From: Chlorophyllum brunneum
Taxonomy: Eukaryota > Basidiomycota > Agaricomycetes > Agaricales > Agaricaceae
Length of the DNA stretch: 64,000 nt
Assembly (NCBI GenBank): GCA_963576785.1
Contig: OY756147.1
Location: 930,001 to 994,000 of the forward strand
Reading direction: 5' to 3'
The notes under the pieces are model-generated. The model searched no databases. It saw nothing but the letters and a program-made list of their open reading frames with translations, and was not told the DNA's origin. Shown here one piece after another: positions 2,244 through 50,329 of the stretch. The first letter of the stretch is position 1, and every line of letters starts with the position of its first letter. Position numbers and translations under genes: made by a program.

Positions 2244-2373
2244 TGACTGCTTCTTTTCCCCAAACTCCCACCTGTTGATCACATGATCACCCCTCGTCAA
2301 TACTCCAAATATCCTCCATGTTCCAGGCAGTAAGCACTCTAAGTGCAGATTTCCATATGGGCCTGTAGCCCCC

Positions 2374-4306: not shown

Positions 4307-7300
4307 GAACAACCTGGACTGTCTGGAGGGTGTTAGGGTTTTTACTTTTAATGTTGCGAAATCTTACATATATGTTGATACTTTACTCGAGAAATTGAAA
4401 GACTTTTTTGATATTCTCTTCTTCCAAGAACCTCCCTGGAGGTTCATCCACTCCACTCCCTCTACCACTGATATGGAAGGGGACAATGTTACTAGTACAC
4501 CAAAGCACTCTGACTGGCTCATGGTGGTGTGTCCCCCTACTCAGGGGTCCCAGCCCCAAGTGATGGCATATGTACACACTCAGCTGCAATGTCTAAGGCC
4601 ATCGATGAGAAGGGACCTTGTCAATCATCCTGATATTCTTGCACTAATACTCTTTACTGATGCAAAGGTATATAATTTCTTGAACATCTATTCTGATAAT
4701 TAACACACTGCAATCAACTTCCTCCATAGAAAGGTTGATGCTCTTCCCCTATTTGATTTTATGAGTGGGGACTTTAACTGTCATTCTTCAGAGTAGGACC
4801 CTGAGGTTCTCTACTATCAGACAACAGTGCATAAACTCATAGAGATGAGTTGCAATCTTGGTCTCAATTTGGTTATGCCAACCAACCCGGGTCTGACCTT
4901 TGTTTCCCACAACTCAGATCTTTGCCCATCAGTAATTGATCTGGTGTTTATCTCTTCTCCCAATGTATCAAGAACCTTTCCTTATTGGGACCTGTCCCTC
5001 TAGGGTACTTTGGATCACATTCCATTGACTGTTACCCTCCCTATTGCTTCTGTTGACATTGGGATCATCAAGTCTGTCCTTCTGAAGGGCTCTGATGAAG
5101 AGAAGGCCTTCTTGGGACATGTTATCAATGAGGTGACCAATCTTTGCAATTGTCCCTTCCCAGATACTCTGGAACAGGTGGATGCCTTGGCCCTGGCCAT
5201 GGCTGAAGCCTTCTCTGATGCATGGACCCACCACTCAAAGGAGATCCAGATTACTCACTGCACCCATCCCTGGTGGGACAAGGCATGCACCATAGCTTTC
5301 TCTAGGTACCAAGGCTCTTGTAGCTGTGGCAACTGGGGGGACTTCAGGCATGCTTGTACAGCAGCCAAGCATTGATTCTTTGATTCTAAGATTAAAGAGA
5401 TTGCTTCCACTAACAAACAACCCTGGGATCTTATGGAGTGGGTCAAGGCTTATAAGTTACTTCCCTGCAAGGCTATCTAGTTTAATGGACAGCCTTGCCA
5501 TAGAATGGACTCCCTTTGGGATGCCCTCCATACAATGTATAACTCAGCTGCTGATTGGCAGTGCAATATGTCTGTTCTGGACCCTCTCCCCAACCTCCTG
5601 GTCAGGGAATGGGTCCCATTTTTGGCATTGGAGCTCACAGAGGCTTTGTTCTCCTACTCAAATGCATCTTCTTTGGGGCCAGACCATGTTACATGGTCTC
5701 ACCTCAAGTATATTGTCATTGATGAAGATTGTTTGGCAGTATTCCTGCACTTGGCCAATACCTGCCTCTCAGTGGGTTATTGGCCCCACAGCTTCAGGGG
5801 GTCACTCTCAGTTATAATTCAAAAGCCAGGGAAGCCCTCCTACTCTACTTCCAAGGCTTTCAGGCCTATTGTGCTCCTGAACACCCTTGGTAAACTGGTT
5901 GACAAAATGCTTTCCAACCAAATCCAGTTTGATGCCATTAAACATGACATCTTTCACTCCCATCAACTTGGAGGCATTTGCCAACATTCCAATGAGGATG
6001 CTGGGCTGTTCCTTACCTACCTGGTTCATGCTAGGTGGGCTAAGGGTCTCAAGACAAGCGTGGTTGCCTTCGACATCACCCAGTTCTTTCCCTCCTTGAA
6101 CTATGACATACTCATGGCCATACTTACCAAGCAGGAGTTCCCACTTAATATGAGGACCTTTTTCACTTCTTACTTGGTAGGCTGCTCCATGGTTTATATA
6201 TGGAATGGCTTTGCCTCAGACCCCTGTGGATATGGGCATTGGACAGGGCTCTACCATGTCCCCTGTCCTCTCAGGCCTCTACATTTCCCCTCTTATGAGG
6301 GTTTTTGATCTGTGGATCACTGCCCCAGGCAGTACTCTGCTATTATATGTTGACAATGGTACCATTGTTGTGCAGGCCAAGACCTGGGACAAGAACTTGG
6401 ACACCCTCAAGGGGGTGTACATTGTTCTCTTCAATCTCTTTGTAGTGTTTGCACTTGTCATGGAGCATAACAAGTCTGAACTTTTCCACTTCTCTAGGAA
6501 ACCTGGAGACATCAACCCCCCCCTTGATTTGGGCTTCAGCCCATTCACAGGGGACACTCCTCTCCACCCTAAGACCTATTGGAAGTACCTGGGCTTTTAT
6601 TTTGACCATGCCCTGAACTTTCAGGAGCACATTCAACATTATTCTACCAAGGCTCTTTCCACCATGAAAGTGATGGGGATACTTGGTAACTCTTTCTGTG
6701 GTCTAACTCCCAAGCAGAAGCAACTCCTATTCAGGTCATGTGTCATACCTATTGCAACATATGGCTTCCACTTGTGGTACTTTGACAAGGCTCAATACAA
6801 GGGTCTTCTCAAGTCCCTCAATACCATGCAATGCAAGGCTGCATTGTGGATCACCAGTGTACTTCGTACCTCCCCTTCTGGTAGCATGGAATGCAAGTTT
6901 ACTGCTGCAGGGGGAATTCCAGGCAGTTTCTGCTGCCCAGATCTACTGGTCAGGCCAGCATGTCTTCCAGACAAGACATATGGCTGGTTGAGTGACAGCT
7001 CCTGATGCAGAGTTGTATGCTATCCATGTTGCAATTGGGAAGGCTGCCAGCCTCCCCAACTGTGACTCCATTATTTTGTTCACTGATTCCCCTGGTGCTG
7101 CCAGGAGAGTGGTGGACCCCTCCATTCACTCTGGTCAGGCTCATTCACTTGCCATGTATAGTGCTCTTATAGAGTGGTTTGAGGGTCATCCCAAGCACTC
7201 TCTTCACATCTGGCACACCTACTCTTCGGAGAAGTAGGCCATCCATGGTATCATACACCAGTACTGTACCGAGCTCCAGGTCTCTGTAGGTTCCTGTCCA

Positions 7301-7923
7301 CAAACCTCTCTTAACTCCCTTTATCAGAAGGTTGTCAAATCCTGCCAGGATGCCTGAATCACTCGATTCCAGGATCCCACTTACTCAGGCAGCCAGTTCA
7401 TGGCTCTTGAAGGGCATAATGGTAAGTCCATCCAGCCCACCTACCTCAATGGAGATTTGTGGCTACCATATGCTGCAGCTGAATCTGTTAGCAGATGACC
7501 TGTTTAGATAGTCACATGATCTAGAGTACACAGACCATGTATTTTTGGTATATAAGGAGTGTCCCAGCTCCCTCAAATATAAGGTTTCTACCCACTTTTG
7601 TGTCTATGTCTGTGTCTGTGTCTGTGTTTGAGCTCTCTCTCTATTCTCCTCTTTTAACAGAGTCTAACTCACTGTCAGCCCATATGTGTAGAGTTATACT
7701 CAACCATGTGCCAATTGGGGCCTATAGGTCTTGGTTCTTCCAGGATGAGCTGTTTTGGTGTCCATATGGGACTCTCTTTGAGTCATGTGTGCATATTCTT
7801 ACCAACTGCAGTCAGTTTGATTCCTCTAGGGGGTACCCTGCTATGCTGGGTGCCCTTGTCAAGTTCTCGAAGATAAACCCTTAGGTGTTCACCTTCCCAT
7901 CTGTTTCTCAGGGAATTGGATAA
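4299..7923 (+). pseudogene. LINE A2 ORF2 (EN-RT-RNase H), degenerate
   Basis: ORF2 should start at the ATG in ATGTCTAGG, overlapping the ORF1 stop. The endonuclease is recognisable from QEPPWRFI, NIYSDN, GDFNCHS and LDHIPLTVTL. RT is recognisable from FDITQFFPSLN, GIGQGSTMSP and the catalytic box, here YVDN instead of YVDD. RNase H shows DAELYAI and FTDSPGAA, and the C-terminal finger ends near 7860. Stops, frameshifts and a large deletion near 6890 (removing the RT-RNase H linker) make it non-functional. A solo LTR splits it at 7486-7659. The family stop GIG-TAA is at 7921-7923. Confidence 0.9.
7486..7659 (+). mobile_element. Solo LTR, short member
   Basis: A 174-bp block begins TGTTAGCAG and ends TTTTAACA. 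It is flanked by GAATC (7481-7485) and GAGTC (7660-7664), a 5-bp target duplication with one transition. It carries a TATATAAGG box and a TGTGTC-rich 3' part. It is clearly related to the 305-bp LTR at 17334-17638 but shorter. Removing it rejoins the LINE A RNase H region. A solo LTR left by LTR-LTR recombination is the natural reading. Confidence 0.87.
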
Positions 7924-8429
7924 CTGGCTTAGGATAGGTAGGTTATTGTTCAGCACTGGAGGCCTCTGGTAAAGATCTGGTGAACACTTTTGATGACTGG
8001 TGAATGGACCTGAACCCTTCGGCTACTAGGTGTGGTGAAGATGCCAATAGCCACACAAATGGTGTGGTCAATTACTCTGGCAAGGATGACTGTGGCTGGG
8101 GGATTGGGTCTTAGTAAAAGGGGGTTGGGGCTTAGCTGGGCTAGTAACTGGGTACATTGCCACTGCTGGGCATTTACAGTGAATTAACACCTACTGACTG
8201 GGCCTGGTCTTTGGACTGGGTTGCTGGTTGGGGGACCTCCCTACCCACTTGCCTCCTCTTGCATCCACTCCTCTCATCCTTCAGGCTCAGGAGTAGGATA
8301 CAACTCCTCCTGCTGTTGGTTTTGGACAATGGCACTTCTGCTTGGTAGGGCATAATTACTATTTCTCCATAGATACCTGCTAGAGTCCTCATTTGTATTC
8401 TGGCTGCAGGCTGTGTTTGAGCACTGTGT

Positions 8430-8435
8430 AATAAA
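8430..8435 (+). terminator. LINE A poly(A) signal AATAAA
   Basis: AATAAA lies about 20 bases before the A-tract of A2, at the same place as in copy A9 (53137-53142). It probably directs 3' end formation of the LINE A transcript. Confidence 0.6.
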
Positions 8436-8489
8436 TTGACCTTGGGCCATAATTTAAAAAAAAAAAAAAACAAAAAACAAAACAAAAAA

Positions 8490-8573
8490 GTACATAAGCC
8501 ATCACTTGGGGCTGGGACTCCTGGATAGGGGGATGCATCACCATGAGCCAGTCAGGGTGCTTAGGTGCATTGA
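8490..8573 (-). pseudogene. LINE A1 resumed (endonuclease fragment)
   Basis: After the right target duplication of A2 the antisense A1 copy continues with the endonuclease stretch that corresponds to KHPDWLMV. It ends near 8573, where plus-strand LINE A ORF1 sequence (copy A3) abuts without a visible duplication. Confidence 0.8.
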
Positions 8574-8929
8574 ATGCCTCAGCTGGTCCTTATACTCTTA
8601 CCTAGCAGGCCTGTAAGGCTCTTAAGGCTAGGCAAAGCTCACTCATCATTGAGGAATCTACACTTGCCTACAATGGCTACTCTATGGCCACCAATAAACT
8701 TGCCATGACCAAGGATATTGAGATCCTTTGGGTATTGGTTGAATGTCTGTCCCCTTCAAGAGCTCCCTTCTGGATTGGTCTCCCCTCATCAATATTGTAC
8801 CTCCATGTAGTAGATGTCCCCTTCCTCAAGAACTCTGCCACTGGAGTTCAATCCACCCCAGTAGACATCGAAGAGGTTCTTACCTCATTGGTTCATGCTC
8901 CTCTTATCAACCTCAAGGGTCCACCAAGG
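8574..8929 (+). pseudogene. LINE A3 ORF1 fragment (5' side of split copy)
   Basis: The translation matches the central part of LINE A ORF1 (SMATNKLAMTKDIEIL, FWIGLPSSI, PLINLKGPPR). It stops exactly at GGGTCCACCAAGG (8917-8929). The same 13 bases, in reverse complement, reappear at 19201-19213, where ORF1 continues with the next residues. The copy was split by a LINE C insertion, and its two halves were then separated by the 13.9-kb inversion. Confidence 0.88.
8917..8929. repeat. Target-site duplication of LINE C1 (now separated by inversion)
   Basis: GGGTCCACCAAGG at 8917-8929 is identical to the reverse complement of 19201-19213. The latter abuts the poly(T) (19214-19231) that is the antisense A-tail of LINE C1. 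The pair flanks LINE C1 only when segment 10420-24338 is re-inverted. Confidence 0.92.
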
Positions 8930-10419
8930 CATCCCTTCTTTGACTTGTACCACTACCATCAATTCTCATAAGTTGATCTTATGGTGCTAGTCTATAGTAC
9001 AAAGGATATACACTATGCCTGAGTTATGTTCTAACCTCTCCCCAAGGGAGCCTACACCTGATGGAGATGAGGATGCCTTTGGGTACACACCACGTGTTCC
9101 CCCCTCATCGATCTTTGCAGCCTCTCCGGCTCTGCCCCCCCCTGGCATCCTGTTCCCCAGGATGCCATCCACGCCCAGGCCCTTCATCCATACAGACCAG
9201 GCCTACAGCCAGACCATTCCCCCTTCAGTCATTAGCAGAAGTTCGTCGGCATCTACAAGACCAATGACTCCCACACATGCCACTGGTCCTGCCATTGGTG
9301 ACATTCAGAAAACGGCCCATCGAGCTTCTAAATGCACACAGCTGGATGGAGACTACTACTACTTGAATGAAGGCACCTCGAGTAACAATTGGGCCGACCA
9401 AGTTGAAGACAAGTTGAAGATAAAGATGAAGGTTGAAGAAGTTGCTGAGAAAGACACTGCAGAGCATGACGGTGGTCCAGAGGAGTGCTATGAGGATGCA
9501 GTGAGAGAAGTAGGCAAGATCTCCGAGTGGGTGAAGGCCTGTGTCTCCTACAACTGCTCTTACAACATGAGTGGTGACGAGGGTCTTGTATTTGGGCGAG
9601 CTTTCTCAGAATTGACGGGGACCTTGATGAAAGCGGGATGGCTCAAGGCTGCCGTCGACGAGCAGAAGAACAACCTTCTAGGTTGGATGGGGGTCAACTT
9701 CGGTACCATCACCATCCGCGCCAAGGAGACACCTTAACCAGACACCTCCCCCCTATGATGCGTGGCCTCCAAAGGGCCCACATGGAATCCAGACAATGTC
9801 CGCATGGAGGTCATCGAACACATTGTCACACCAGGCATCACCGGCAATCAAACCAACGATGCCACTGACAACGTCCAAATGATCACTGAGGCAGAGTTCA
9901 AGACTGTCATAAGGAAGAAGAAGGGTAAGGAGCGTAAACCCAAGCCCTCTAATGCAACCCCCCCTATCTCCAGACCAGCAACCACGCCCCCTAAGGCCAA
10001 ACCCATGAAGCCCACCCCCGCTATGAAGCAGATACCTGCTCCGGCCACCCCCTCCCCACTGAAGGGAGGCCTGAAGCCCTCCTACACTTTGGCCCCTGCC
10101 AAGAATGGCAAGGCCCCTGCCTCCACTCCTTCCTCTGGGTGTGACCCTCTCAAACTCCTGGGGTTTGTGAGCAAGTTCCCAGAACTATCAAACAAAAAAA
10201 TAGTAGCTATGTCTGATATTGCTTACTCTGCCCCCTCCACTACAAACAAAAAGCCAACCAAGAGTGCTGGCATGGTTCGTTCTATGCTTAATGGTCCCTT
10301 GCACAAGCAAGTGATCATCCCCCTCCTCTCCAGTCCCAATGTTACCAACTTTGGGGCCATAATCGACTCTCTCAATGCCTGCCTCATAGCCGAGAAGTCC
10401 AAAACCAGGGTCATCACCG
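8930..10419 (+). mobile_element. LINE C1, 5' part (5' UTR and ORF1 N-terminus)
   Basis: This segment runs from the LINE C 5' end, directly after the target duplication, to the inversion breakpoint. Its remainder is the minus-strand block 19214-24338. Together they give an element of about 6.6 kb. The join between base 10419 and the complement of base 24338 keeps the ORF1 reading frame. Confidence 0.85.
9015..10419 (+). pseudogene. LINE C1 ORF1, N-terminal part
   Basis: An open stretch starts at 9015 (MPELCSNLSPREPTPDG) and runs 240 codons to a TAA at 9735-9737. A TGA follows in frame at 9756-9758, and the same frame then stays open to the breakpoint. Seen here: Pro/Ser-rich N-terminus, an acidic/Lys segment (EDKLKIKMKVEE), a segment with WVKACVSYNCSY, a basic KKKGKERK stretch, then a long Pro/Lys/Thr linker. 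There are no zinc knuckles; those lie at 23566-24338 across the breakpoint. The layout parallels LINE B ORF1. Taken alone it could be mistaken for a host gene. The target duplication and the in-frame continuation argue against that. Confidence 0.75.
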
Positions 10420-11883
10420 CCCCGGAGAGGCTGCAGATGGCCTGATAGGACAGGCATATCTACCAATGTGGAGCGACTTCTGGAGGAGGAGGTTTGTCTG
10501 TTGACCCTTCTGAGAGTCATAGATATTGAAGTATACCATGGTGGTATCAGATGCCTCAGAGTTCCTCGAGATACGAAGGGGTCCCATTAATGTGAATAGG
10601 TCAGAAAATGCTGTGCATTTCATGATCTGCTCGATCTCAAAAGAGGACCAGCGAGTCTTGCCGATCCTGAAGTAGGGGATGTTGATGACCTTGAGATAGG
10701 ACTTTGACTAAGGAAGGCCAACCATAAAAATGGTTCCCTGAGGGATAGCCTTCGAGATCCACATTCTGGCAACCTCGAGGTCAGCAGGAGTGGGGACAGT
10801 GTTGGTATGCAGAGCAAAACCCCCATACTTGGCAGAGGTAGCCTCTACTCAAATATGAAGGCATGAGTCTTGGACTTGGGAGGAGAGACTTGCTCACCCA
10901 TGGCGAGAATCCTGTCCAGAGGAAGCGAAGGGAACATCTGTGCAAGCTGCACAACAGTTCCCAATGCCATAGTTGTCTTTCCCTTCCCTTTCGGTTGGGG
11001 AGCAGGCTCCTTGGCCACTACAGAGAATGTTCTCTTGTTCTCTGCCTTAACAGCTGGAGTAGAAGGGGCAGGAGGAGCCACTGGCTTGTGCTAGTAGGTC
11101 CCCTTGCCCAAGAGAGGAGATGGTCCAACCCCAGCAGAGCAAGGACCACTTGAAGGTCCCTCTGGACCAGGCATGAGAATGTCTGGATCCTGGGAGGGAG
11201 GCCCAGCCAGGGGAGGCTGGGGGACAGCTCATGCCCTTGGTACAGGAGGAGTACGAGGGGCAGGAGGAGGAGCAGTGGGAGTGGCAGGGGCCAGTCCCAT
11301 AGATGCACTCAGGATGGTACCAATGGTAGGCATTCCAAAGCCAAGTTTGACAGTGGACCATCCACTATTGTCGATAGCCTTGCACAATCAAATAATCAAT
11401 TGTGTAAGGGGATAGACTGAATTACCTGCAAGGTAGTCCAGTCGATATTCTCCACCATCTTGTTGAGGAAGGTAGAGATTAAGTCCAGCAAATCCAAGGC
11501 TGCTTTGGGGTCTCCTACAACACTTTCAACAGTGTTAAGAAGATGACAGGAGTATGGGAATAACAAGCTGGTGGAAGAGGGCACAGGGCTAGGTGCACTA
11601 GGGTAGGGCCCCGGGGGGGAGTTCTGGGTACTTCATCAAACCCACCTAACTCATCAAAGTCCCCCACAGTGGGCCCAAGCAATGGCGAGGTTGCGCATAA
11701 AGGGGTGCGTCAACTCCTCCTTCTAGTAGGAGTCCTGAGAATGTCTGGAGGTCCTCTAGTATGACTAGAATCGCATGGATGGTGGATAGGTCCTGAGGAG
11801 GAAGCCCAGATAGTATTGAGGGTGTCGGGGGACTTGGGGACATGGCGCCCAGTCCCTCCACTGAATGGGGGTTGCGATGACAT
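10420..11883 (-). pseudogene. LINE B1 ORF1, N-terminal and central part
   Basis: The start is the ATG of MSSQPPFSGGTG at 11883, the same start as LINE B9 (60095). Recognisable parts are a Pro/Ala-rich domain, the motif KRTFSVVAKEPAPQPKGKGK (near 11040-10980), TVVQLAQMFPSLPLDRIL, and then an RNA-binding-like segment up to the zinc-knuckle region, cut by the breakpoint. Several frameshifts and stops are present. It is a gag-like nucleic-acid-binding protein by family. Confidence 0.8.
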
Positions 11884-12016
11884 GCAGAATAGCCGCAGGT
11901 GTGTTCCTAGGGGGCTAGGACACCGAAACAAGCAAGGACAACAACTTTGATGATGAGAACAAGTTGTTTACACTTGTTTACTGGTGGAAGTACCAAATCA
12001 AGAAGCATTATTTCTT
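10420..12016 (-). mobile_element. LINE B1, 5' part (5' UTR and ORF1), inverted
   Basis: This is the LINE B 5' UTR (about 11884-12005) and most of ORF1, reading leftwards to the breakpoint at 10420. Its continuation is 24339-25238 on the plus strand, and the join restores the LINE B sequence seen at 54601-54640 without a missing base. The 5' end matches that of LINE B9 near 59969 (both start GCTTCTT, then a conserved stretch reading CACTTCCACCAGTAAAC or close to it). Confidence 0.85.
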
Positions 12017-12033
12017 GCTCTCTAGAACCATTC
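12017..12033. repeat. Target-site duplication of S1-LINE B chimera
   Basis: GCTCTCTAGAACCATTC at 12017-12033 and GCTCTCTAGGACCATTC at 16921-16937 differ at one base. They bracket the poly(T) at 12034 and the truncated S1 end at 16920. The 17-bp pair shows that LINE B and S1 entered together. Confidence 0.92.
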
Positions 12034-12036
12034 TTT

Positions 12037-12067
<31 letters not shown>

Positions 12068-12343
12068 GTTTAAGGTGGTGCGTGATTGCAGTCCACCTGT
12101 AACTACTATGACATGTAGGCTACAAAGAGGGTAGTATACAAAGATGGGCTCTCCCCTGGCCAAACTAGACCACCGACAGGCGGTCTGGGTGAACGGTTGC
12201 AGAAACACGCACGAACACGTGAATTCTAGACCAGATATGCAAAGCGACCCCTAGCCTCCCCTCCCTAGGGAGAGTATGCGTCAATTCACAATTAACTCCT
12301 ATACACATCAGAGACGTGGGGAGCTAGCAGGGGTCACACTGTG

Positions 12344-15300
12344 TTATCCAACTCTTACAAGCGGTGTGTTGGACTTAAACGCAAACGCTAAAGGATTGCG
12401 CTTAAGGAAAGATACCAGCTGGTCAATAGAGACCAGCAGGCCACGACGTCTCTTGTACAGAGGACAAGAGCACAAGATATGAGTGCGAGTCTCCAGAGGA
12501 GCCCCACACTCACAGCCAATAGGCTCTAGAGGATGAAACCAGGAGCGATACTTGCTGGTCGGTGTGTGCCCGAGAATGGCATGATTCGCCCTCATTGCAA
12601 TGGACGGAGAGGAAAAGGAAGGAAGCCAAGAACTCCCATAGAGGTATGTCGGCTGTAACAGTTTGTTCTTACTGTCCTTGAGAACAAGGAAGTTAGAACC
12701 GCAATAAGAGGAGTCTTGGAAGGTAACCTTCCAGGCCTTCTGGACAGTTGCTACATTGAGCTTACGCAGTGAGTCAATAGATGTCTCTGGACAATGTCCA
12801 GTGGCAACTCAAAGGTCGGTGGCAAATAAATGCACCTCCTGATGAATGGACCATTTCACCGACGACGGAATGGACCAGAAAGTGAGAGAACAGTCAGGAC
12901 GATCCCTGAACCATTCCACCAGAAGACAACACACAGCCAGAGAATGTCCCTGGCCAGAGTGTACAGACAGGTCCAGAGCTCGCTTGGCAGAGCCAATCGA
13001 GTCAGTAAAGACCACAATATGTACAGCCTCAGAAACTGCTGCAGTAGTTCCCAAAGCCATACGAATGGCAAAAAGTTCAGCATCTGGGGCTATAACCTTG
13101 CCAGCTGGGTGACGCATTGCACGAAGCAACCGTGTCCCCCTGTAAACGTGGGCAGCCGAAACTGCCTGGTAATCTCCAACCAGAGGCAGACTTGCGTCTG
13201 TCACTGTATAGACCACCTGTCTGTCCTCACGATACCCATGAAGGGTATCATTGAGCAAATCCACCTGACGACCTGTGGGGTTTCCACCGAGCGAGGCATC
13301 ATATGTTTTGAAAGTCACCTGGGCCACGTAGCGGTCCAGGAGACGAGAATCTGGCGATGCTTCGAGTGCAAACGGCTCAAATGTCTCTATTAACACTGGC
13401 AAACGAGAGTTTGCCTCTGTGACTGGCCCCTTAACCTTAACTGCCTGGGCGGGGGTCATGAGAGCGATCGATCTGGGGTGTAAAACACATTCCCCAATGT
13501 ACTGATGCCCCATAACGGAGCGAACAGGGTGATTCTCAGAAAGTGTGGCAACCCTGTGGACAGTACGGGTAGCCAGCTTCTTGAGATGAAGATGGATGGG
13601 GATGAGGCCAGCCAAGGCCTCAACTCCTCCAGTAGGGCTGGTGTGGAATGCACCAGTGATCCACAATGCAGCTTTATGCTGCATCGTGTTAAGTTGTTTC
13701 AGAAGGGCCTTGTTACAGGCACCTTCATAAAACCAGAGTCGGAACCCATACGTAGCAATAGGCACTATGCACGAGCGATAAAGGATCCTCTTCTGAGCAG
13801 GAAGAAGACCTCGTGAAGAGTTACCAAGCATGCCCATGGCCTTGACCATAGACAGAGACTTGGTAGCATAATGTCGAACGTGCTCTTTAAAAGTAAGAGC
13901 ATGATTGAAGAAAAAACCCAAGTACCTCCAGTGGGTCTTAGGGTGTAGCAGAGTGTCACCAGTATGGGGAGCATACCCCAAATCCAGCGGTGGGTTGTTG
14001 TCTCCCCGTTTACAGGAGAAATGAAAAACTTCGGACTTGTCGTGCTCGACGGCAAGCCCAAATGCAGTAGTCAAGCGATAAATAATCTGGTACGCCTGCT
14101 TGAGGCACACCAAATTAGGCTCCCAAGTTTTAGCTTGGGCGATGGCAAGGCTATCATCAACATATGAGAGCAAGGTACTCCCAAGGGCAGTCGCCTCCCT
14201 ATCATAAAGCTTCATGAAGGGGGCAAGATAGAGGCTGGAGAGGACAGGAGAGAGCAAAGAGCCCTGACCGACCCCAATGTCTGCCTGCCTGAGATCAGAC
14301 TTGTGGTCCCCCCACGCATACTGCGTAGAGCGGCCAACCAAATAAGAGGCAAAAAATCTACCCACACAGGGGTCGAATCCTTGCTTCCGTAGAATTGCCA
14401 ACAACATAGAGTGGTTGAGCGAAGGAAAGAACTGAGCAATGTCAAAAGTGACAACACTAGTCTTGAGGCCCCTGGCCCACCCCGCATGAACGATATGGGT
14501 TAGGAGCATCCCAGCATCATCAGTGGACCTCTGACGGATACCACCGAGCTGATTTGGATGAAAAACTCCATGTTTGACGGAGTCAAATTGGAGGCGATTC
14601 GAGATCATTTTCTTGATAAGTTTACCAAAGGTGTTCAGGAGCACAATGGGCCTGAACGCCTTGGACGTTGAGTAGGACGGCTTGCCCGGCTTCGGTATAA
14701 TAACTGACAAGCTTTCCTTGAAATGGGATGGCCAATGACCCACACGCATGCAGGCATTAGCTATTCTGATGAATAGCCGAAGGCCATCAGGGTCTTTGGT
14801 GATCTCTTTGAGGTGGGTCCACGTTACATGGTCCGGCCCTGGGGCAGACACACCTGAGCATGCACTGAGGGCATCCATCAGCTCTAAGGCTGAAAAATGG
14901 ACCCACTCCCTAGCTAGAAGGCTTGGCAGTGGATCAAGAACGGAAATATCCACAGCTCAGCCAGAAGCAGAGTTGTAGGTATTGTGGAGTGCGTCCCAGA
15001 GATCCAGGAGCACATGACATGGCTCTCTATTGTACTGGATAGCCTCGCAAGGTAGAAGCTTCCGCTTTTGGACCCATTCCATAAGGTCCCACGGTTGCTT
15101 GTTAGTAGAAGCAATCTCCTCAATGTGAGCATCAAAGAAGTTGCACTTAGTGCGCTTCTTAGCACGTCTAAAAGTAGAGTAGTCATCGTGAGAACAAGTC
15201 TCACGATATCTCCCAAAGGTTTCACGGCATTCCTGGTTCCACCAGGGTTTAGAGTGGCAAGTGATCATGACGTCCACTGCATGGGCTTCCCATGCAGTGG

Positions 15301-16216
15301 AAAAGGCCTCCGCCATGGCATGGACCGCAGCTTTGACCTCATCAGTAGTAGTAGGTTCCGGAAGTCTAGCTACTTTATGGAGGTCCCAGATAACATCAGT
15401 GAGGAAGAGCGCTACCTCCTCGCCACCATCATGCGGCAGGGTTCTCCTGTGAGTCTCCACTAATGTGGGAGTGACTGGAAGCATCAAGACTAGTGGAACG
15501 TGGTCTGACGGACCCCTAAGGGAGTAATCCAACCTGGGCCTATGGGCAATAGACAGGTCTGATGGAACAAATACCAGATCAATGACCGAAGGTCGGAGAT
15601 CCTCATTGTGTGAAATATGAGTAGGCCCAAGCTCGACCAGAAGGGCGAGGTCTAGACCAATGTCTGTCCCGATGGAGATCAGAGACTGCAAGGTACCTGA
15701 GTGGGAGCCATAATTAGGGTCCCACAACTCGGAATGGCAATTAAAATCGCTGCCCATGTAGATATGCTTGGGCAAAGTAGTGGCCCAGTCCAAAAGGAAC
15801 CAAATCATACTGTGCTCTGAATCGGAGTAGACATTCATGAGATTCAGGATCTCGCCCCCCAAAAAGAGGGAGAGAACCATGATGTCATGGTGATCAATGA
15901 GATCTGTCCAATAGGACAGTCTCAGAGAAGCCAACCGGTTATGGACAAATGTCATAACCTGTGGGTCAGAGCCAGGCTCCAGGGCCCGAACCATGCACAG
16001 CCACTCGGGGTGCTTGGGGGCGCCAACAACGTCGTCTCCCTCGACAGAAGTTGTGGAGGGAGCGGATCTAATGAACTGCCAGGGAGGTTCCTGAATAAAG
16101 AGAACATCAAAGTGATCTTTGAGGTCCTCAAGTAATGTGTCCAATAAATCATAATTTTTGTTAAGATTCTGTTGGTACAATCGGATACTACGTAGTTCTA
16201 GAGGTCGCCTATTCAT
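12344..16216 (-). pseudogene. LINE B2 ORF2 (EN-RT-RNase H), near-intact
   Basis: From the ATG of MNRRPLEL at 16216 to GVG-TAA at 12344 the pieces lie in one frame, about 1,290 codons. I found two in-frame stops, a TGA at 14957-14959 and a TGA at 12809-12811; a short stretch after 12809 I did not check codon by codon. Endonuclease: QEPPWQFI, NVYSDSEH, GSDFNCHSELWDP, PSDHVPLVL. RT: FDIAQFFPSLN (motif A), GVGQGSLLSPVLSSLY (motif B) and the intact catalytic box SYVDDS. RNase H: VTDASLP, DAELFAIRMALG, VFTDSIGSAK. C-terminal finger: CECGAPLETRTHILCSC. It is the best preserved LINE B polymerase in the window. Confidence 0.93.
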
Positions 16217-16238
16217 TGGCAAGCTGTAGAGTCCCATC

Positions 16239-16920
16239 TACGGAGCCCCTTGAGGGGTCTCTTACCACCAGCCTTAGCCAATGGTGATGTGGAATCAACT
16301 TGAGCTGGAACCTGGCTATTTTTCCTGTACCAGGCCAACCAATGTAGGATTTAGTCCTCTCGAGCCAGGTGAGCATTCTCTGATAACCAGCAGCTTTTTT
16401 CAGCATGCCCCGGTACATCACCTGTTATGGCCCACAACTTCACCCAGGCGCTACCCCAGAGTTGCTTCCCGTTCCTCAGCAGCCAGTTTGGTATGCCTTA
16501 TGGCCCAGATCCCCGTGCTTAACTGTCTGAGATCTACACCTTGCAGACACCACTACCAGATTGGTCCTGAGGTTATTTTAAGCCAACTTAGTCAGCATCC
16601 TCAATCTGGAGATTGGGTTATGTCTACTAACTACCGGAACTATGCCAAAGTGGACCGGGAGGGGTATTCTATCTCGGCGGCTTTTTTCAGCACGCCCCGA
16701 GTCGGACTGTTATCACAACATTCCCCTTCTTATAATGCCCTATCTCCAGCAGTGGCTTAGGTAATCCTCCCAAGTTAGGCCCCAGCATTAGGGCACCACC
16801 ACCTTTGGCCAATATTGGACTTGGGCGATGCACACAGCTGGGTCACACCGTGACAGTGTGATGTCACTATGTGACTTGCTATGTGGCTGGGTGTGACAAC
16901 TCCCATGCTAGCCTGTGACA
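16239..16920 (-). mobile_element. S1 non-coding element, 5'-truncated
   Basis: About 680 bases match the S1 copies at 32714-33590 and 50871-51472 but lack the tRNA-like head. It contains two copies of the core motif GCTGAAAAAAGC (antisense, near 16390-16405 and 16680-16700), about 286 bases apart. Its 3' end (16239 side) is joined directly to LINE B2 upstream of ORF2. No open frame looks selected. Confidence 0.85.
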
Positions 16921-16937
16921 GCTCTCTAGGACCATTC

Positions 16938-16968
16938 AACAGTCCCACTGCATACTATCTTTATCAGA
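16938..16968. other. Short unassigned sequence
   Basis: About 31 bases between the right copy of the 17-bp target duplication and LINE A3. They match none of the elements here. In the pre-inversion order they lay between the LINE A3 end and the LINE B1 5' end, so they may be a remnant of the older locus. Confidence 0.5.
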
Positions 16969-19213
16969 ACATGCTCCTGAAAGTTCAAAGATTGAAGAGA
17001 ACAATGTACACTCCCTTGAGAGTATCCAAGTTCTTGTCCCAGGTTTTGGCCTGGGCAATGATGGTTCCATTGTCAACATATGACAGCAGAGTACTGTCAG
17101 GGGCAGTAACCTGCAGGTCAAAAACCCTCATAAGAGGGGCAATGTAGAGGCCTGAAAGGACAGAGGACATAGCAGAGCCCTGTCCAATACCCACATCTGC
17201 ACCCCTGAGGTCTGAGGCAAAGCCATTCCATGTATAAACTGTGGAGCGGCCTACCAAGTAAGAAGCAAAAAAGGTTTGCATGTTAAGTGGGAAGCTCTGC
17301 TTGGCAAGTATGGCCATGAGCATATCATGGTTCTGTTAGAGTTGACCAGCTATCTCATCTTATCAGAGCTTGTCTAGTGTTATCTTATCTTATCTGGTTC
17401 ATCTCATCTTATCCTAGATAGCCTTAGATAGTTAGTCACATGATTTGGTAGTGCACAGACTACCCTCTGTACATATATAAGGAGCATCCCAGCTCTCCCA
17501 AATATCAATCCTTTACCCATTATGTGACAGTGTTAGTGTCTGTGTCAGTATCTGAGTGTTTGCTCTCATCTCTCTTTATCATCCTCTTTTGTGTTGCCTC
17601 TACCCTTGCTATCCCCTTCTGTGTTCCCACCTTTAACAGGTTCAAGGAAGGGAAGAACTGAGCAATGTTGAAAGTGACCACACTTGTCTTGAGACCTTTA
17701 GCCCACCCAGCATGAACCAGGTGGGTAAGGAACAGCCCAGCATCCTCAGTGGAATGTTGGTGAATGCCTCCAAGTTGATGGGAGTGAAAGATGTCATGCT
17801 TAATGGCATCAAACTGGATTCAGTTGGAAAGCATCTTCTCAACCAATTTACCATGGGTATTTAGGAGAATGATAGGCCTGAATGCCTTGGGAGTGGAGTA
17901 GAAGGGCTTTCCCGGTTTTAGAATAATAACCAAGAGCAACTCCTTGAAGCTGTGAGGCTAGTGACCCATATAAGGTAGGTATTGGCTAAGTGTAGGAACA
18001 CCATCAAGCAATCTTCATTAATGATAATATACTTGAGGTAGGACCATGTAACATGGTCCAGCTCCAGAAAAGACATATTAGAGCAAGATACCAAGGCCTT
18101 TGTGAGCTCCAATACTGAGAAAGGGGCCCAGGGTCAATAACAGATGTGTCCACACTGCTGATTAGCAGCAGAGTTGTATGTCAAGTGGAGGGCATCCCAA
18201 AGAGAGTCCATTCCATGACAAGGCTGTCCATTAAATTGGATAGCCTCATAGGGAGGTAACTTGCAAGCCTTGACCCACTCCATTAGGTCCCAGAGCTGCT
18301 TGTTAGTAGAAGTGATCTCCTTAATCTTGGAATCAAAGACCTGATGCTTGGCTGCTGTACAAGCATGTCTGAAGTCCCCCCAGTCACTATGGCTCCAGGA
18401 GCCCTGGTATCTGGAGAAAGTGGTAGTGTATGCCTTGTCCCACCAGAGACAAGTGCAGTGAGTAATCCAGATCTCTTTCAAGTGGTGGGTCCACACATCA
18501 GAGAAGGCTTCCACCACAGCCTGGGCCAAGGCATTCACCTGTTCCAGAGATTCTGGAGAGAGATGATCATGAAGATCAGTCACCTCATTGATTGTCTTTC
18601 AATTTCTCAAGCAGCATATCAACATAGACATAAGATTTCATGACATTAAAACTAAATACCCTAAGGCCCTCCAGACAATCCAGGTTGTTCCTGGACATAA
18701 GGGGGGTTATGAGGGGGGATAGGAGAGCAATGATGCCTATCATGCACCTCTCAATAACAGGCTGTCAGCCAGGCCTGGTCATGGTTGTGATTCCACAAAG
18801 CACACTTCCTGGAATCAGCAGGATACTCCTTCTTGCAGTTGCGGCAATGGAGAGGATGCAGGCATGGTTGACTAGTGGGGATAGCAGGAACCAGAGGCAT
18901 AGCCTTTGGTTTCCCCTTACAACACTGTGCAAAAGTATGGTGGTTGGCATGGGAGTGAGGACTACTGTAGTCAGGACATGCAGGGCCATCAGCCTTGCAC
19001 CAGGAAGAGATGTGGCCCCACTTATAACAGTGGGTGCACAGTGACTCATTATGGGAAGAGTTGGCAGAGAGTATTATATACTGCTTTTTCCCAAACATGA
19101 TCTTCTTGTTCAGAAGACTGAGGGCTCAGGTACTCCTCATAGAGTCCCAGATGTCAAAGAATGCCATATAAGAGTTGGACATTTTGGAGTTATGCACCAA
19201 CCTTGGTGGACCC
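16969..19213 (-). pseudogene. LINE A3, remainder of split copy (ORF1 end, EN, RT)
   Basis: Reading leftwards from 19213: ORF1 resumes right after GPPR, with knuckles (CTHCYKWGHISSWC, CRNCKKEYPADSRKC). The ORF1/ORF2 junction is near 18700. The endonuclease start is cut by a deletion of several hundred bases near 18592. RT then runs to about 16983 (DHVTWSYLKYI, QLGGIHQ-type pieces, GIGQGSAMSSVLSGLY, YVDNG). A solo LTR interrupts it at 17334-17638, and a further internal deletion near 16990 joins two RT segments. Frames are broken throughout. Confidence 0.87.
17334..17638 (+). mobile_element. Solo LTR, 305 bp
   Basis: It begins TGTTAGAG and ends TTTAACA, with an exact 5-bp target duplication GGTTC (17329-17333 and 17639-17643). 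A TATATAAGG box lies at 17474-17482. Upstream is a run of ATCTTATC repeats. Downstream is a TGTGTC/TCTCTTT-rich tract. Removing it restores LINE A RT. The 5-bp duplication and TG...CA ends fit an LTR retrotransposon, and the family is shared with 7486-7659. No internal coding part of this family is seen, though a Copia RT scrap exists at 31608-31873. Confidence 0.92.
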
Positions 19214-19429
19214 TTTTTTTTTTTTTTTTTTAAATCAACAATTTATATAGTGGTGCTCGATTGCAGTCCACAAGTACATAGTACAAAGGCAGAACATACA
19301 GAATGTTTGGAGCAGAGAGAGTAAACTATTTGTAAATTAACCCCACGAGACTCGATGACATCTAGCGTGTACACTAGAGAGATGTTTGATACCTAGGTTG
19401 AACTGCAAGAAAAGGAAAGGAAGGAAGTT

Positions 19430-19455
19430 GGAGAGAGAGAGAGTGAGAGAGAGAA
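19430..19455 (-). repeat. GA/CT microsatellite in LINE C 3' UTR
   Basis: A run of GAGAGA units, also present in LINE C2 near 28195-28210. It is therefore part of the element rather than a local expansion. Confidence 0.8.
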
Positions 19456-19672
19456 ATTGATAGAAAAGGAAAACTATCTACCCTTGAATACAAGGGAGAA
19501 CACCAAATGGTACTAGCATATGGAGGGGCATTTTGCCCAGACACCACGGGAATGATGGAAGTCAAAAGAAATCTACATAGAATAGTAGACGAGCAGGGAA
19601 GAGAGAGAGAGAGAAATGGAAGTGAAGTCCATAACCAGGAGAGCACCAGAAAAATATAAGAGAAGAAAGGAC

Positions 19673-22600
19673 TCACGCGGGCATGGACCCGAACCTCAGG
19701 AGGACTTGGCGACAATGTAACAGTGGTATTGAGCCAACACAGATATGAGGGCAATCAGGTTCCGGCGGGAAGCTGAATGCAGATGGATTTTGTCGCAAGA
19801 AGTTGACGAGTATTTTGATGGTAGTGACTCCGAAGTGATGGTCAAAGTGTTGACAGCAGTAGAGGATATGTGACCTGGTCTGGACCAGTTGGTTGCCACA
19901 GTGATGGCAAGCTAGATCCTTGTTGGGGAAGAACCGGAGTCGGTATTCACCAATTGGGACATGGCATAGGATGGTGCGACATGCTCTTGCAAAGAGCTGT
20001 GATTGGTATCTGCATTCTCGCATCCAAGGACCGGATTTGAGGTGCGATGGTAAGGTGGAGGCCCCGTTCACTCTCATCAGGAGATGGAGGAAGGAGCTAC
20101 TGCTGTAGCTCTTGAATCCAAACATGGCTTGCTATGTATGGATGGAACATTCAGCGGACTTCTTGCAAAGGTAGTCGATGGAATTGGGGGCTTGGTGATT
20201 CTCACCCCAGTTAGGCCAGGCTACTGTTTGGATCCAGTCATGCGTAGCTTTCTGGATCCTGTACTTGCACTTCGATGGGGTATAATAGAAGGAGAGGCAG
20301 TGTCAGTTGGACTTGTTGAACCAAGTCAGGAGCGCCTTTGACGTGCGTATGGATTGTTGCTGACAGGAGTGTGGTGAGTAGTCAAGTAGGAGCCAGGAGG
20401 CCATGAGAGAGTCAGTGAAAACATGAATGTGTTCGACCTGCTCATAGTTGTTGGTGGCGAGTACCTTGGTGATCCCCAAGCACTGTGCAACCAGTTCAGT
20501 GTCAGTAGACATCATTCCTCCAAGCCTCTTCATGATAGAGCTCCCTCTGTCCAGATGTCAAATGGTAGCTGCAGCTGTAAACTGGCCAGCAAGCGGGTTA
20601 GGATTGGGGTGGACTGAGCCGTCTGTGCCGATGATGATGACCTTGTGGTCCGTCGTTGCATTCTTCATTACATTGTCCCATAGTTCTTTCGAGAGATGGA
20701 GATCATCCCGGTTGAACCCTATGAAAGATACATTAGCATGAAACAGGTCTAGTAACTTACGTCCGGGCCAGAGAGTCTTAGAAAAAGAGTTGAAAGATTC
20801 TATATAGCAAGTCTCGGGGGTGGGGCAGGAAACGTCCATTACAGCTCCAAGCATCTTCTTCTTCTGAATCTCCATGAAATTCCTGATGTGAAGTCGGTGG
20901 GGGGAAGAGTGAAACTCTTTCATCAATCTTGCCAGTGCATGTTCATCATCCAGTGTATGAAGCCTCGACGTCTGTTGTTCAGCCAACTTTCGGAGATGGA
21001 GTTTGATGGGCATGAGACCGGCAAGGGACTCAACACTGCCGGTAGGGGATGTGCAAAAGGCCCTGGTAATCCAGAGGGCCGCACATCGCTGCATCTTGCT
21101 GAGGATTTTGCAAGTCCCCTTCATCTGGGACTTGTTGTGAAACCAAAGTCGGTTTCCATATGTCGTGACCGGCACAACACACAAATGGTACAAGAGTCTC
21201 TTGTTGCTAGGAGACAATCCTCGCACGGAGTTCCCTAGCATCTTCATTGCCTTGATTGACAATATCGCCTTGGCAGAGTAGAAGCGGACATGTTCCTTGA
21301 AGGTCAATGTCCTATCAAAGTAGAAGCCAAGATATCGCCAGTGGGTCTTCGGCTTAAGGGGTGTATGGCCTGTGAATGGAGGGGAACCCAAGTTGATAGA
21401 GGGATTGGAGTCTTGCCTGGCACGGGTGAAGTGGAAAACCTCGGACTTTGCATGCTCGATCACTAAGCCAAAATCATTCAGGAGCCACTCCATCTCGCAG
21501 TACATGTGCTGTAGTATCTCAACGTTCTTTTCGAGGGACGGGGATTGCACGATGAGGGTGCCATCGTCCACGAAGGACAGGATGTTGAAGTCCCATTTGT
21601 CTTGGTGTTCCTCCATGCGGGCGTCGAATATTCGAAGGAGGGGGGTGAGGTAGAGAGTGGAGAGAATAGGACTAAGGATAGAGCCCTGTCCTACCCCCAC
21701 TGCCACATTGTATTCCGGGGAGTTCTCATTGTTCCATTGGTATATGGTGTGGCAACCTTTAAGGTAGTTGTTGAAGAACACCACAATTTGGGGGGGAAGC
21801 CTTGCCAATGGAGTATGTCGGTGAGGAGGCCGTGATTGAGGGAGGGGAAGAATTGGGTGACGTCGAATGCAAGCACTGATGTTTTCTTCTTCTTTGTCCA
21901 AGCTCCCCAGATGATGTGAGTCAGGAATAAGCCCGTGTCCTCTGTGGATTGTTGACAGATGGCTCCCAATTGGTGAGAGTGGAGGACTTTGAACTTCACC
22001 GCCTCGAACTGAAGTCTCTTAGCTAGCATCTTCTCGATTAGCTTGCCCAGAGTATTGAGTAGGACGATCAGATGGAATGCCTTTGGAGTGGAGTAGTTGG
22101 GCTTGTTCGGTTTGGGAATAATCACCAATATCGACATTTTGAAGTGCGAAGGCCAGTGACCAAAGGCCAGGCATGCTCGGCTGGTGTTGAGGAATAGATC
22201 AGCGCAGGTATTGTTCGAGGCGATCTGTTTGAGATGGGACCAAGAGAGTCGGTCGGGGCCGGGGGCAGAAGAATTCAAGGTGTCCTTGAGCGATTCCCTC
22301 ATCTCTAGGAGAGAGAAATCGACCCAAGTCCTATTCTCCATGCCAATCAGGGCCAGTAACTCATCGAGGACAGCCACATTAGTTGGTCTGTCTTGAGCCA
22401 AGTTGTAGTGTTGGCTGAGTGCCGTCCATAGGCTGTCCATGGTGAGACAGGGCTGACCATTATGGCGAATGGCTTCAGTGGCCGGGAGAGCGCATGTCTT
22501 GACCCACGGCATCAAGTTCCATGGGCGTTGGTTGTCAACTGAGATTTCTTGGATCTTCTTGTCAAAGTATGCTCTTTTTGTCTTCCTCGTAGTCTTGCAA

Positions 22601-23545
22601 AAAGTGTTCCATTTGCGCTTGTTCTTGCAGTCCGCACGATGTTCAGCAAGTGTGTTGGAGCACTCTTTGTTCCACCAGGTCTTGGATCTGGAGGTGATCT
22701 TCTTCTTCACATTGCGATTCCAGGACCTGTCAAATAAAACTCCCAATTTGGCCACAGCTCTCTCCAGCTCGTCCGCGTTGTTCATTGGCCAGTTTCCGTT
22801 CTCAATTCCCATCGCAATATCCATCAGGAATTTAGTTTCTTCATCTGATTCCTTTGGTATTGTCAGTCTCTCAATGACAAGGTCCATTTGTGGAATGGGG
22901 ACTCTGATTAGAAGGGGGGCATGATCATGAGGAGACAGTCTGCACTCACTGGATGTTGGTCCGTCGAAGGGTCCCATTACTCAGATCAAATGTTGATGTC
23001 GCCACCTAACAAGAGGAAGGGTAGGAGGTCAGAGAGGTGCTCCTCGAGAAAGTGGAGTGCAGTGTTGCAGCTGTCGTTGTAGATGTTCAACAGCAGCAGT
23101 TCTTCTCCTCCCGCACAAAGGGAAATGCACAGGAGGTCTCGATGGTCGACGATGTCTCTTCTGATGGAGGGTCAGAGGCATTTGAGTCTCTTGTGAGCAA
23201 AGGCGAGGACTCGAGGCACGGATTGGTGTTGCATGTTGACCATCTGTCAAGGTTGCCGCTGGCATCCAGCTTGGAGGACTTCTTTGGCAGTGAATGAGTA
23301 TGATAGTAGAGTCCAGTCTGGGTGGACCGGGCCTCCTACAAGGGGGGAACCATTATTGGAGACAGGGGAGGGGATGTCACGGAGGTATCTCTACGGGGGT
23401 TCTTGTACAAGGAGGAGGTCGACGTCACCTCTGTGCACAAGGACTGTCTCACTCCATATGATCTTCCAACATTGTGAGAGCAGACCTTCAACTCACTCAG
23501 AAGTGAGCGAGGAGGCCCGTCTTAAATGTCAGGTGCGTTATTCAT
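19673..23545 (-). pseudogene. LINE C1 ORF2 (EN-RT-RNase H), degenerate
   Basis: By comparison with 58281 (MNNTPDDQD), ORF2 should begin near 23545. The endonuclease N-terminus is full of stops (QEPP, NIYND, LGGDIN still readable). From 22977 leftwards a 428-codon frame gives the EN C-terminus and RT start (SSAPGPDRLSWSHLKQI, FDVTQFFPSLN). A frameshift near 21800 leads to a second frame with GVGQGSILSPILSTLYL, the intact box SFVDDGT, and RNase H (GTDGSVHPNP, DTELVAQCLGI, FTDSLMASW). A C-terminal finger (CHHCGNQLVQTRSHILYC) follows. Stops at about 20558 and 20303 break the last third. Confidence 0.88.
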
Positions 23546-23565
23546 TTGGTGGGGTTAGTCTGGCT

Positions 23566-24338
23566 TCAACTAGCCGGGGATAAGGAGGAGGGGGCGGGGA
23601 TTCCTTTGTTGGCCCTTAGTTCGAGAGCCTTGTTAGCATGCCAGTTATGGTCGAATCGCTTCTTCCAGAACTGACATTTGTAGTTGGTGGCGAGGTGGTC
23701 CTTGCCGCAGTTGGAGCAGGTGGCCTTATGAGGGCACGGTTCCCCAGCAGACATGGCCACAATGGGGGGGTTGGTCTTGTCATTGCCCTTGCAGCAGTAG
23801 GCAAAGGAGCGGTGGTTGGCAGTGGAGTGGGGGCCCTTGCAATGAGCACATGTGAAGAGTTGGGCATGGCACCGGATGAGAGGGTGGCCCCACCTGCAGC
23901 ATTTGGTGCAGAATGGAACACCGGGGTTGGCGTTAGCCCTTCTGATGTGGAAGAGGCTGCCGTATATGTTGAGGAACTTATCCTTGATCTTGGCAATGTT
24001 GGTCCCCACTTTGGAGTCCCAGATCTTGAACCACACCGTACAGGTATCAGAGTGTTTGGAGTTGCGATGCACCCTCGGTTGCAACGCGAATTGAATGGTG
24101 TCAGAGTGGATAGAGTTCCTGACGCTGGAGACGACATCAGCCTCGGTGAGAACTTGGCCTCGTAGTGTGATGTAGGAGACATCCATGACTTTCATGAATG
24201 ATTTGGACTTGGGGAGGGAGGCTTTGCCAGTGGTGATCCCTCCGAACTTCTCCTTGAGCCATGCCTTGATGACATTGAGCTCCATGGGGGTCAACACCTC
24301 CAAGGTGTGGACCATAAGACCCAGCTTACCCTGTGAGA
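23566..24338 (-). pseudogene. LINE C1 ORF1, C-terminal part with zinc knuckles
   Basis: This is the frame continuing from 9015-10419 across the inversion breakpoint. It carries SQGKLGLMVHTLEV, an RNA-binding-like domain (KVMDVSYITLRG, CTVWFKIWDSK), then three Cys/His knuckles: CTKCCRWGHPLIRC (CX2CX4HX4C), CAHCKGPHSTANH, and CSNCGKDHLATNYKC. It ends at 23566. The frame appears open across this part. The codons to the right of 24338 in the same frame belong to antisense LINE B and are not part of this gene. Confidence 0.88.
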
Positions 24339-25238
24339 GTGTCTCTGTGTAAGTGATGCTTCCACTGGGGTCACCCCATCCAATTCTGCAAGGCACAGGC
24401 CTTGAAATGCCCAACCTGTGGTGGTTCTCATTGGGAGGAACATCACCGTACTCTCTGTGGGTGCTGCAAGGGTAACTCCAGTGTGCAGCCCCCTATTCCC
24501 CCCACACCGGCAGATGAGCCCTGTTCTCATATGCTGCATTGTCTCAACTGCCGAGGTTCACACCATACGACCTCAAAGAAATGTAAATTTTTTGATGCTT
24601 GGTTTGAACCCAAGAAAATCAAGAAGTTCTATCACAAGGTGAGCAACAACAGCAATCTCCCCTCACTAACCCTCATACTCTACAGCTTGCCAATGAATAG
24701 GCAACCTTTAGAACTACGAAATATCTGTGTATATCAACAGAATTGTAATAAGAATTATGATTTCGTGGATACTTTACTTGAGGATCTCAAAGATCACTTT
24801 GACATCCTCTTCTTTCAAGAACCTCCCTGGCAGTTCATCAGATCCACTCCCTCCACAACTTTTGTCAAGGGGGATGACGTTATTGGCACCCCCAAGCACC
24901 CCAAATGGCTGTGCATGGTTCGGGCCCCAGAGCCTGGCTCTGACCCATGGGTTATGACATTTGTCCATAACTGGGTGGCTTCTCTGAGACCATCCTATCA
25001 GACAGATCTCATTAATCACTGTGACATCATGGTTTTCTCTCTCTTTTTGGGGGGTAAGACCCTGAATCTCATGAATGTTTACTCTAATTCAGAGTACACA
25101 GCAATTCGGTTCCTTTTGGACCAATCTGCTACTTTGCCCAGACACATCTATATGGGTGGCAATTTCAATTGCCATTCTGAGCTTTGGGACCCTAACTACG
25201 GCTCCCACTCGGGCACCTCACAGTTTCTGATCTCCATC
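24339..25238 (+). pseudogene. LINE B1, ORF1 end and ORF2 endonuclease start
   Basis: This is the continuation of 10420-12016 after re-inversion. The knuckles CPTCGGSHWEEHH and CLNCRGSHHTTSKKC are followed, without a stop, by MNRQPLELRNI of ORF2, so ORF1 and ORF2 are fused in one frame from 24402 onwards. The endonuclease part shows QEPPWQFI, NVYSNSEY and GGNFNCHSELWDP, with the usual Asp of GDFNC replaced by Asn. It is cut at 25238 by the poly(T) of LINE A4. Confidence 0.85.
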
Positions 25239-39937: not shown

Positions 39938-40487
39938 TTTTTTTTTTTTTTTTTTTTGAATCATGGCCTAGGGCCAATTTATTACGCGGCGCTCGAACAC
40001 AGCCCGCGGCCGGGATACAAAAGAGTAAACTAGCGGGTATCTACGGAGAGAGTGGTAGCTACGCCCCACCAAGCAGAAGTACCGTTGCCCAAGACCAACG
40101 GTAGAAGGAACCGCGACCTACTCCCGAGCCCGAAGGGCGAGGGGGTGGACGCTAGAGGAGGCGAGTGGGCAGGGAGGTCCCCCAACCAGCGACCCAGTCC
40201 AAAGACCAGGCCCGGTCAGTAGGTGTTGATTCACTGTAAATGCCCGGCGGTGGAGACGCACCCAGTTACTAGCCCAGCTGAGCCCCAACCCCTTTTACTA
40301 AGACCCAGTCCCCCAGCCACGGTCACCCTTGCCAGAGTATTTGACCGCACCATTTGTGTGGCTATCGGCATCTTCACCACACCTAGTCGCTGTGGGGTCC
40401 AGGTCCGTTCATCGGTCATCGGAACTGTCGCCAGGTCTTCGCCAGGGGTCACCGGTGCCGGACAATAACCCACCTACCCTAAGCCAG

Positions 40488-46113: not shown

Positions 46114-46313
46114 NNNNNNNNNNNNNNNNNNNNNNNNNNNNNNNNNNNNNNNNNNNNNNNNNNNNNNNNNNNNNNNNNNNNNNNNNNNNNNNNNNNNNNN
46201 NNNNNNNNNNNNNNNNNNNNNNNNNNNNNNNNNNNNNNNNNNNNNNNNNNNNNNNNNNNNNNNNNNNNNNNNNNNNNNNNNNNNNNNNNNNNNNNNNNNN
46301 NNNNNNNNNNNNN
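46114..46313. other. Assembly gap (200 N)
   Basis: An exact run of 200 N between two head-to-head LINE A copies. The round length suggests a placeholder of unknown true size. It hides the 5' ends of A8 and A9. Confidence 0.99.
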
Positions 46314-50179: not shown

Positions 50180-50329
50180 AAGTAGGGGTTCCCACTTAAC
50201 GTGCGAACCTTTTTTGCTTCATACCTGGTGGGCCGTTCCACTGTCTACACATGCAAGCAGGGGTTTCTACTGAACATGAGGAATTTTTTTGCTTCATACC
50301 TGGTGGGCCATTCCACTGTTTACACATGG
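50180..50329 (+). repeat. 75-bp tandem repeat inside LINE A9 RT
   Basis: Two units, 50180-50254 and 50255-50329, encode FFASYLVGRSTVYT and FFASYLVGHSTVYT. They differ at about a dozen sites, mostly in the first 30 bases. The second unit resembles the subfamily of A2 there (AACATGAGGA type). Confidence 0.85.

Follow-up and report, generated by a model that had tools for sequence, protein, structure and literature searches.

A 13.9-kb inverted segment through two LINE retrotransposons in a centromere-like repeat cluster of Chlorophyllum brunneum

Two retrotransposons, LINE B and LINE C, are both cut within ORF1 in the stretch of Chlorophyllum brunneum DNA analyzed here, which raises the question of whether a single inversion accounts for their arrangement and what kind of event would have produced it. 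This stretch, termed the window, comprises 64,000 nucleotides corresponding to bases 930,001-994,000 of contig 9 in a genome of 38.9 Mb and 14 contigs. The halves of both elements match only once the segment from 10420 to 24338 is turned. Coordinates of the relevant features are collected in Table 1.

The original prediction placed switches between LINE C and LINE B at 10419/10420 and at 24338/24339, and both were seen when sequences spanning the two junctions (J1 and J2) were searched against the genome. Specifically, the J1 query contained 241 bases (10300-10540) and the J2 query 240 bases (24219-24458), with the best 40 of 237 candidates scored in the J1 search and the best 40 of 291 in the J2 search. 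The junction was crossed by more than 10 bases in none of the 39 other matches listed, for the J1 query and the J2 query alike. LINE B, however, runs across the restored join with a gap of 0 at 14 of the 14 places common to the J1 and J2 matches listed. This pairing compared all 25 LINE B rows of the J1 search with 18 of the 39 other J2 rows; the remaining 21, inspected by eye, were not near any J1 row. LINE C is likewise contiguous across its restored join (gap 0) at 11 of 11 places common to both match lists, which were paired by hand from their coordinates among the matches listed for its two sides. The reversed order together with this base-level closure confirms that the segment 10420-24338 is inverted in the assembled order.

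Table 1. Features of the inverted segment, its flanking elements and the contig 11 inversion. Positions are those of the window except for contig 11.
Feature	Coordinates	Strand	Basis or remark
Inverted segment as first proposed	10420-24338	-	13,919 bp; 10421-24337 at least as good a fit
Breakpoint J1, plus-strand LINE C ORF1 to antisense LINE B ORF1	10419-10422		genome search, joined-flank alignment
Breakpoint J2, antisense LINE C ORF1 to plus-strand LINE B ORF1	24336-24339		genome search, joined-flank alignment
LINE A insertion, outside block	2244-8489	+	14-bp target duplication 2230-2243, 8490-8503
LINE A target fragment left of LINE C	8572-8929	+	homology; ends in LINE C duplication
LINE C target duplication, outer copy	8917-8929	+	window sequence search
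LINE C 5' part	8930-10419	+	homology to relatives
LINE B 5' part	10420-12006	-	extent of homology
Second LINE B insertion (B'), inside inverted block	12034-16921	-	LINE B homology 12038-16232
LINE A target, continued inside block, reversed	16987-19213	-	internal deletion; short insertion 17333-17638
LINE C target duplication, inner copy, reversed	19201-19213	-	window sequence search
LINE C 3' part	19214-24338	-	polyA read as polyT 19214-19231
LINE B, next 900 bases	24339-25238	+	antisense LINE A interrupts at 25239
Contig 11 inversion locus	about 804,788-810,676		loci L029, L030

When 150 bases from each side of the restored joins were aligned with relatives, LINE B aligned without gaps to 13 distinct copies (14 rows) and LINE C to 11 (12 rows, of which L004 and L040 represent a single copy). 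The gap that is present in longer LINE B alignments thus sits elsewhere than at the join. Extra bases at the joins in relatives of either element had been named as a finding that would weaken the claim of exactness, and none were present in these 13 and 11 aligned copies. LINE B had also been said to be restored as in a copy 'B8' with five G in a row. Its closure was reproduced, while the five G are present in several copies and 'B8' is a label of the prediction itself. There is no N at either join, the sole gap in the window being at 46114-46313.

The position of the cut has a one-base ambiguity. With 10420-24338 as the segment, the first LINE C base after the join is a T, at a position where C is present in all 11 of the 11 distinct copies aligned. 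None of the 39 other LINE C matches listed starts its alignment at base 24338; 33 of the 39 begin one base later and 6 of the 39 begin at base 6. The cut is perhaps one base too wide, because the LINE C relatives lack the base at 24338. If the inversion is taken to exclude this base pair, LINE C gains its C and LINE B gains an A that is found in 2 of the 39 other matches listed and in 2 of the 13 distinct aligned copies. Bases 10421 and 24337 are identical in either order, which makes 10421-24337 and 10422-24336 indistinguishable and amounts to 1 bp of microhomology. A segment of 10421-24337 with this microhomology therefore suits the data no worse than 10420-24338. A private or later point mutation, or a repair error, is also a possible cause of the odd base at 24338. 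The description of the inversion as 'exact' is consequently correct in that no net base is gained or lost in any version, but it is too strong for the one base whose side is ambiguous.

Insertions nested around and within the segment provide a further continuity. The window contains just two copies of GGGTCCACCAAGG, the 13-bp target duplication of LINE C, one at 8917 (+) and the other at 19201 (-). Re-inversion brings these oppositely oriented copies together, as was proposed. The LINE A element that LINE C interrupts resumes in reverse from 19213. Since the LINE C duplication and the LINE A continuation are both reversed, the target, the duplication and the element must have turned together. 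The second LINE B insertion (B') has a 16-bp target duplication with 1 mismatch (12018-12033 and 16922-16937), which is direct, as expected for an insertion that lies wholly within the inverted block. The homology of B' to LINE B covers 12038-16232, with the rest (16233-16921) left unassigned. The claim that re-inversion puts all elements between 2244 and 25238 on the plus strand holds for the elements that could be placed, among which the unassigned 16233-16921 does not count, but not for 8490-8571, which is antisense LINE A target resuming after an insertion (join 2243/8490). Two stretches of the LINE C 3' part, 20558-21898 and 21691-22974, match reverse transcriptase. The LINE B 3' half past 25238 was not found in the 880,001-1,054,000 region of contig 9 that was searched, and therefore further loss or rearrangement must have occurred, a point that counts against the inversion reading. 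Short insertions that start with TGTTA and end with TAACA are present at 7483-7660 and 17333-17638, flanked by 5-bp repeats (GAATC/GAGTC and GGTTC/GGTTC, respectively); they look like members of a MITE family.

Reading frames are also informative at the restored joins. The LINE C frame has 219 stop-free codons before the join and, in the 257 codons after it, no stop before the terminal one, so that phase is kept and the frame stays open on re-inversion as anticipated. The phase of LINE B is preserved as well, with 96 open codons before the join and a stop at the sixth codon past it that is the sole in-frame stop in the next 900 bases.

The probable source of this arrangement is a real chromosomal inversion of ~13.92 kb that was made by end joining and is younger than the LINE B and LINE C insertions; we infer both that the living genome has the assembled order and that end joining produced it. 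A double-strand break in each ORF1, that of the LINE C copy and that of the LINE B copy, would have released the segment, which would then have been rejoined in the opposite orientation via classical end joining. Such joining would have proceeded without resection, fill-in duplication or inserted bases, using 0 or 1 bp of microhomology, and would postdate both insertions. A search for inverted homology between the breakpoint neighborhoods (1 kb a side) gave a best E of 0.14 in a 2-kb comparison, which is chance level. Between 8700 and 25700 the sole inverted repeat of at least 30 bases pairs 15671-16232 with 24677-25238 (562 bases, 85%); its arms belong to the two LINE B copies, and neither is at a break. 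These results bear out the proposals that the breakpoints lack inverted homology and that repeat-driven recombination is a poor explanation, the breakpoints sharing no inverted repeat. With inverted homology absent, end joining of two breaks remains. The inversion reading is also supported by the fact that one inversion restores the LINE B body, the LINE C body and the LINE C duplication with its LINE A target, three continuities that were restored by none of the alternatives tested.

Among these alternatives, non-allelic homologous recombination (NAHR) between inverted repeats is scarcely credible as the cause of the flip. A repeat-flanked inversion is known in the sister cluster on contig 11, but J1 and J2 share no inverted homology and LINE B and LINE C have the same direction in the restored order. 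NAHR was rejected at the window locus as no inverted repeats extend across both breakpoints. The probability is close to negligible that twin priming, or a nested antisense insertion, mimics an inversion here. Primate L1s are known to give rise to twin-primed, inverted insertions, which like the window contain inverted LINE parts (PMC2837659); the LINEs in the window also insert into one another. Twin priming, however, would invert part of one element between target duplications (PMC2837659), whereas in the window two different elements are split, and both were turned along with a third insertion and a target fragment. J1 moreover has no polyA, and the LINE C duplication is itself reversed instead of direct, which with the splitting of two elements led to rejection of this explanation. 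A LINE endonuclease might alternatively have made the breaks during abortive insertions that end joining then rejoined. The region is LINE-rich and both breaks are within LINEs, but nearly all of the local sequence is LINE, making break location uninformative, and neither junction shows an A tract, a target duplication or a piece of an element; we regard this origin of the breaks as very unlikely.

An assembly artefact, with the flip introduced by assembly, polishing or curation, is unlikely as well. The repeat nest is dense and a 200-N gap (46114-46313) is 22 kb away, which are circumstances that favor an artefact. Against it, an assembler flip generally requires an inverted repeat at both ends and no inverted repeat was found at either end. 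Complementary cuts that agree to the base are also not expected from unrelated chimeric reads. Furthermore, scaffolders usually place N at joins and these joins have none, so neither N nor a shared repeat marks either junction. The 200-N gap itself separates head-to-head LINE A copies (42448-46113 and 46625-50256) that are inverted and 90% alike, and its presence indicates that the assembly was joined there.

Conservative end-joining inversions, as inferred for the window, are an already described class, so the kind of event is known. Cut-and-paste inversions by non-homologous end joining (NHEJ) have clean double-strand breaks and lack duplications (PMC7584159, where they are credited to Wesley and Eanes 1994). 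The window inversion is like these in having no end repeats or inverted duplications and no net sequence loss (PMC7584159): a single inversion restores both junctions and leaves ends without duplication, deletion or insertion, with one base of ambiguous side. It is unlike those cases in its size of 13.9 kb and its location within a retrotransposon nest, and in that its ancestral order is read from relatives of the broken elements and not from another chromosome. Staggered-break NHEJ inversions share with it end joining without ectopic homology but have inverted duplications at their ends (PMC7584159), which the window inversion does not. None of the titles and abstract openings in a literature search described an inversion of this sort in a LINE cluster of a fungus, which does not prove that there is none. 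What is noteworthy is the setting of an uncommon but known kind of event in a LINE-built, centromere-like cluster.

This setting is evident from the composition of the window, which is a nest of non-LTR retrotransposons. A scan of 12 proteins gave RVT_1 matches for six above the curated cut-off and for one just below it, an Exo_endo_phos_2 match for one and no match for four. Among the matches listed (best 40 per search), LINE A forms one block each on 12 contigs and LINE B one block each on 12 contigs, with contig 12 having LINE A only and contig 8 having LINE B only, so that together the blocks span contigs 1-13; contig 14 has 59,189 bases. LINE C, in contrast, is dispersed along contigs among the matches listed. 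The contig 9 block covers ~930-1,000 kb and 1,013-1,035 kb, with a GC content of 36-47% to its left and in between. There is thus one cluster per chromosome with cluster-specific LINEs among the matches listed, and the cluster on each of the 13 long contigs looks like a centromere. This is congruent with Agaricus bisporus, where large repeat clusters that are likely centromeres occur once per chromosome, four HaTad-type non-LTR families are confined to the clusters, and cluster copies are truncated through jumping into each other (PMC7473861). The likeness extends to the confinement of LINE A and LINE B, the single block per long contig and the nested truncated copies. The A. bisporus clusters differ from the present ones in also having a cluster-specific LTR family, Copia-28 (PMC7473861), and the inversions between A. 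bisporus strains are ~800 kb and ~250 kb (PMC7473861) as opposed to 13.9 kb here.

A further 264 kb-wide scan (~160 kb of it LINE-rich), with 174 kb from contig 9 and 90 kb from contig 11, looked for paired reciprocal joins with a tolerance of 15 bases. This strict scan yielded one candidate on contig 9, which is the window inversion, and none on contig 11, against 0 and 0 in a same-orientation control; it is biased in that its LINE C side consists of one relative, L004, that was obtained via the junction query itself. The count is a lower bound: the relatives came from the stretches of contigs 9 and 11 and from ten short loci, so inversions through poorly represented families would be missed. 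Looser scans with offsets of up to 60 and 300 bases gave 17 and 417 candidates on contig 9 versus 11 and 347 in the control, and 4 and 274 on contig 11 versus 4 and 258, indicating that these candidates are mostly noise. One loose contig 11 candidate (1 and 19 supports), which the strict scan had missed, is a repeat-flanked inversion. It has a ~1.67-kb spacer (806,897-808,566) between inverted arms of 2.11 kb that are 99.1% alike, and three target duplications are reversed, two belonging to the arms and one to a LINE B. This inversion is of the repeat-mediated kind, or is an assembly flip; by contrast with it, the window inversion is different in kind.

Breaks within centromere-like repeats can seldom be read, given how similar the repeats are to one another. 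In the window, diverged nested LINEs and their target duplications resolve one event to the base level and date it after two insertions. A speculative extension, which we hold to be rather unlikely though possible, is that LINE-packed centromere cores of this organism are reshuffled by conservative end-joining inversions besides repeat-mediated ones, with nested LINEs and duplications recording the breaks. If true, this would provide a base-level record of centromere breaks, a class of event that is usually invisible in repeats. If reads agree with the assembled order, the method could count events over all clusters and separate end joining from repeat-mediated flips.

Finally, CpG observed/expected ratios near the joins are similar in the two halves of each element (0.22 and 0.23 for LINE B; 0.38 and 0.45 for LINE C), within a range among the halves of relatives of 0.13-0.82 for LINE B (9 copies) and 0.23-0.80 for LINE C (11 copies). 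This agreement is weakly consistent with single elements that were cut later, the halves being alike in most relatives as well and the LINE C values being less even over the whole parts (0.36 and 0.51). For LINE A the ratio is 0.06 in the insertion at 2244-8489 versus 0.77 in the stretch at 39938-46113, and thus CpG loss varies widely within 40 kb.
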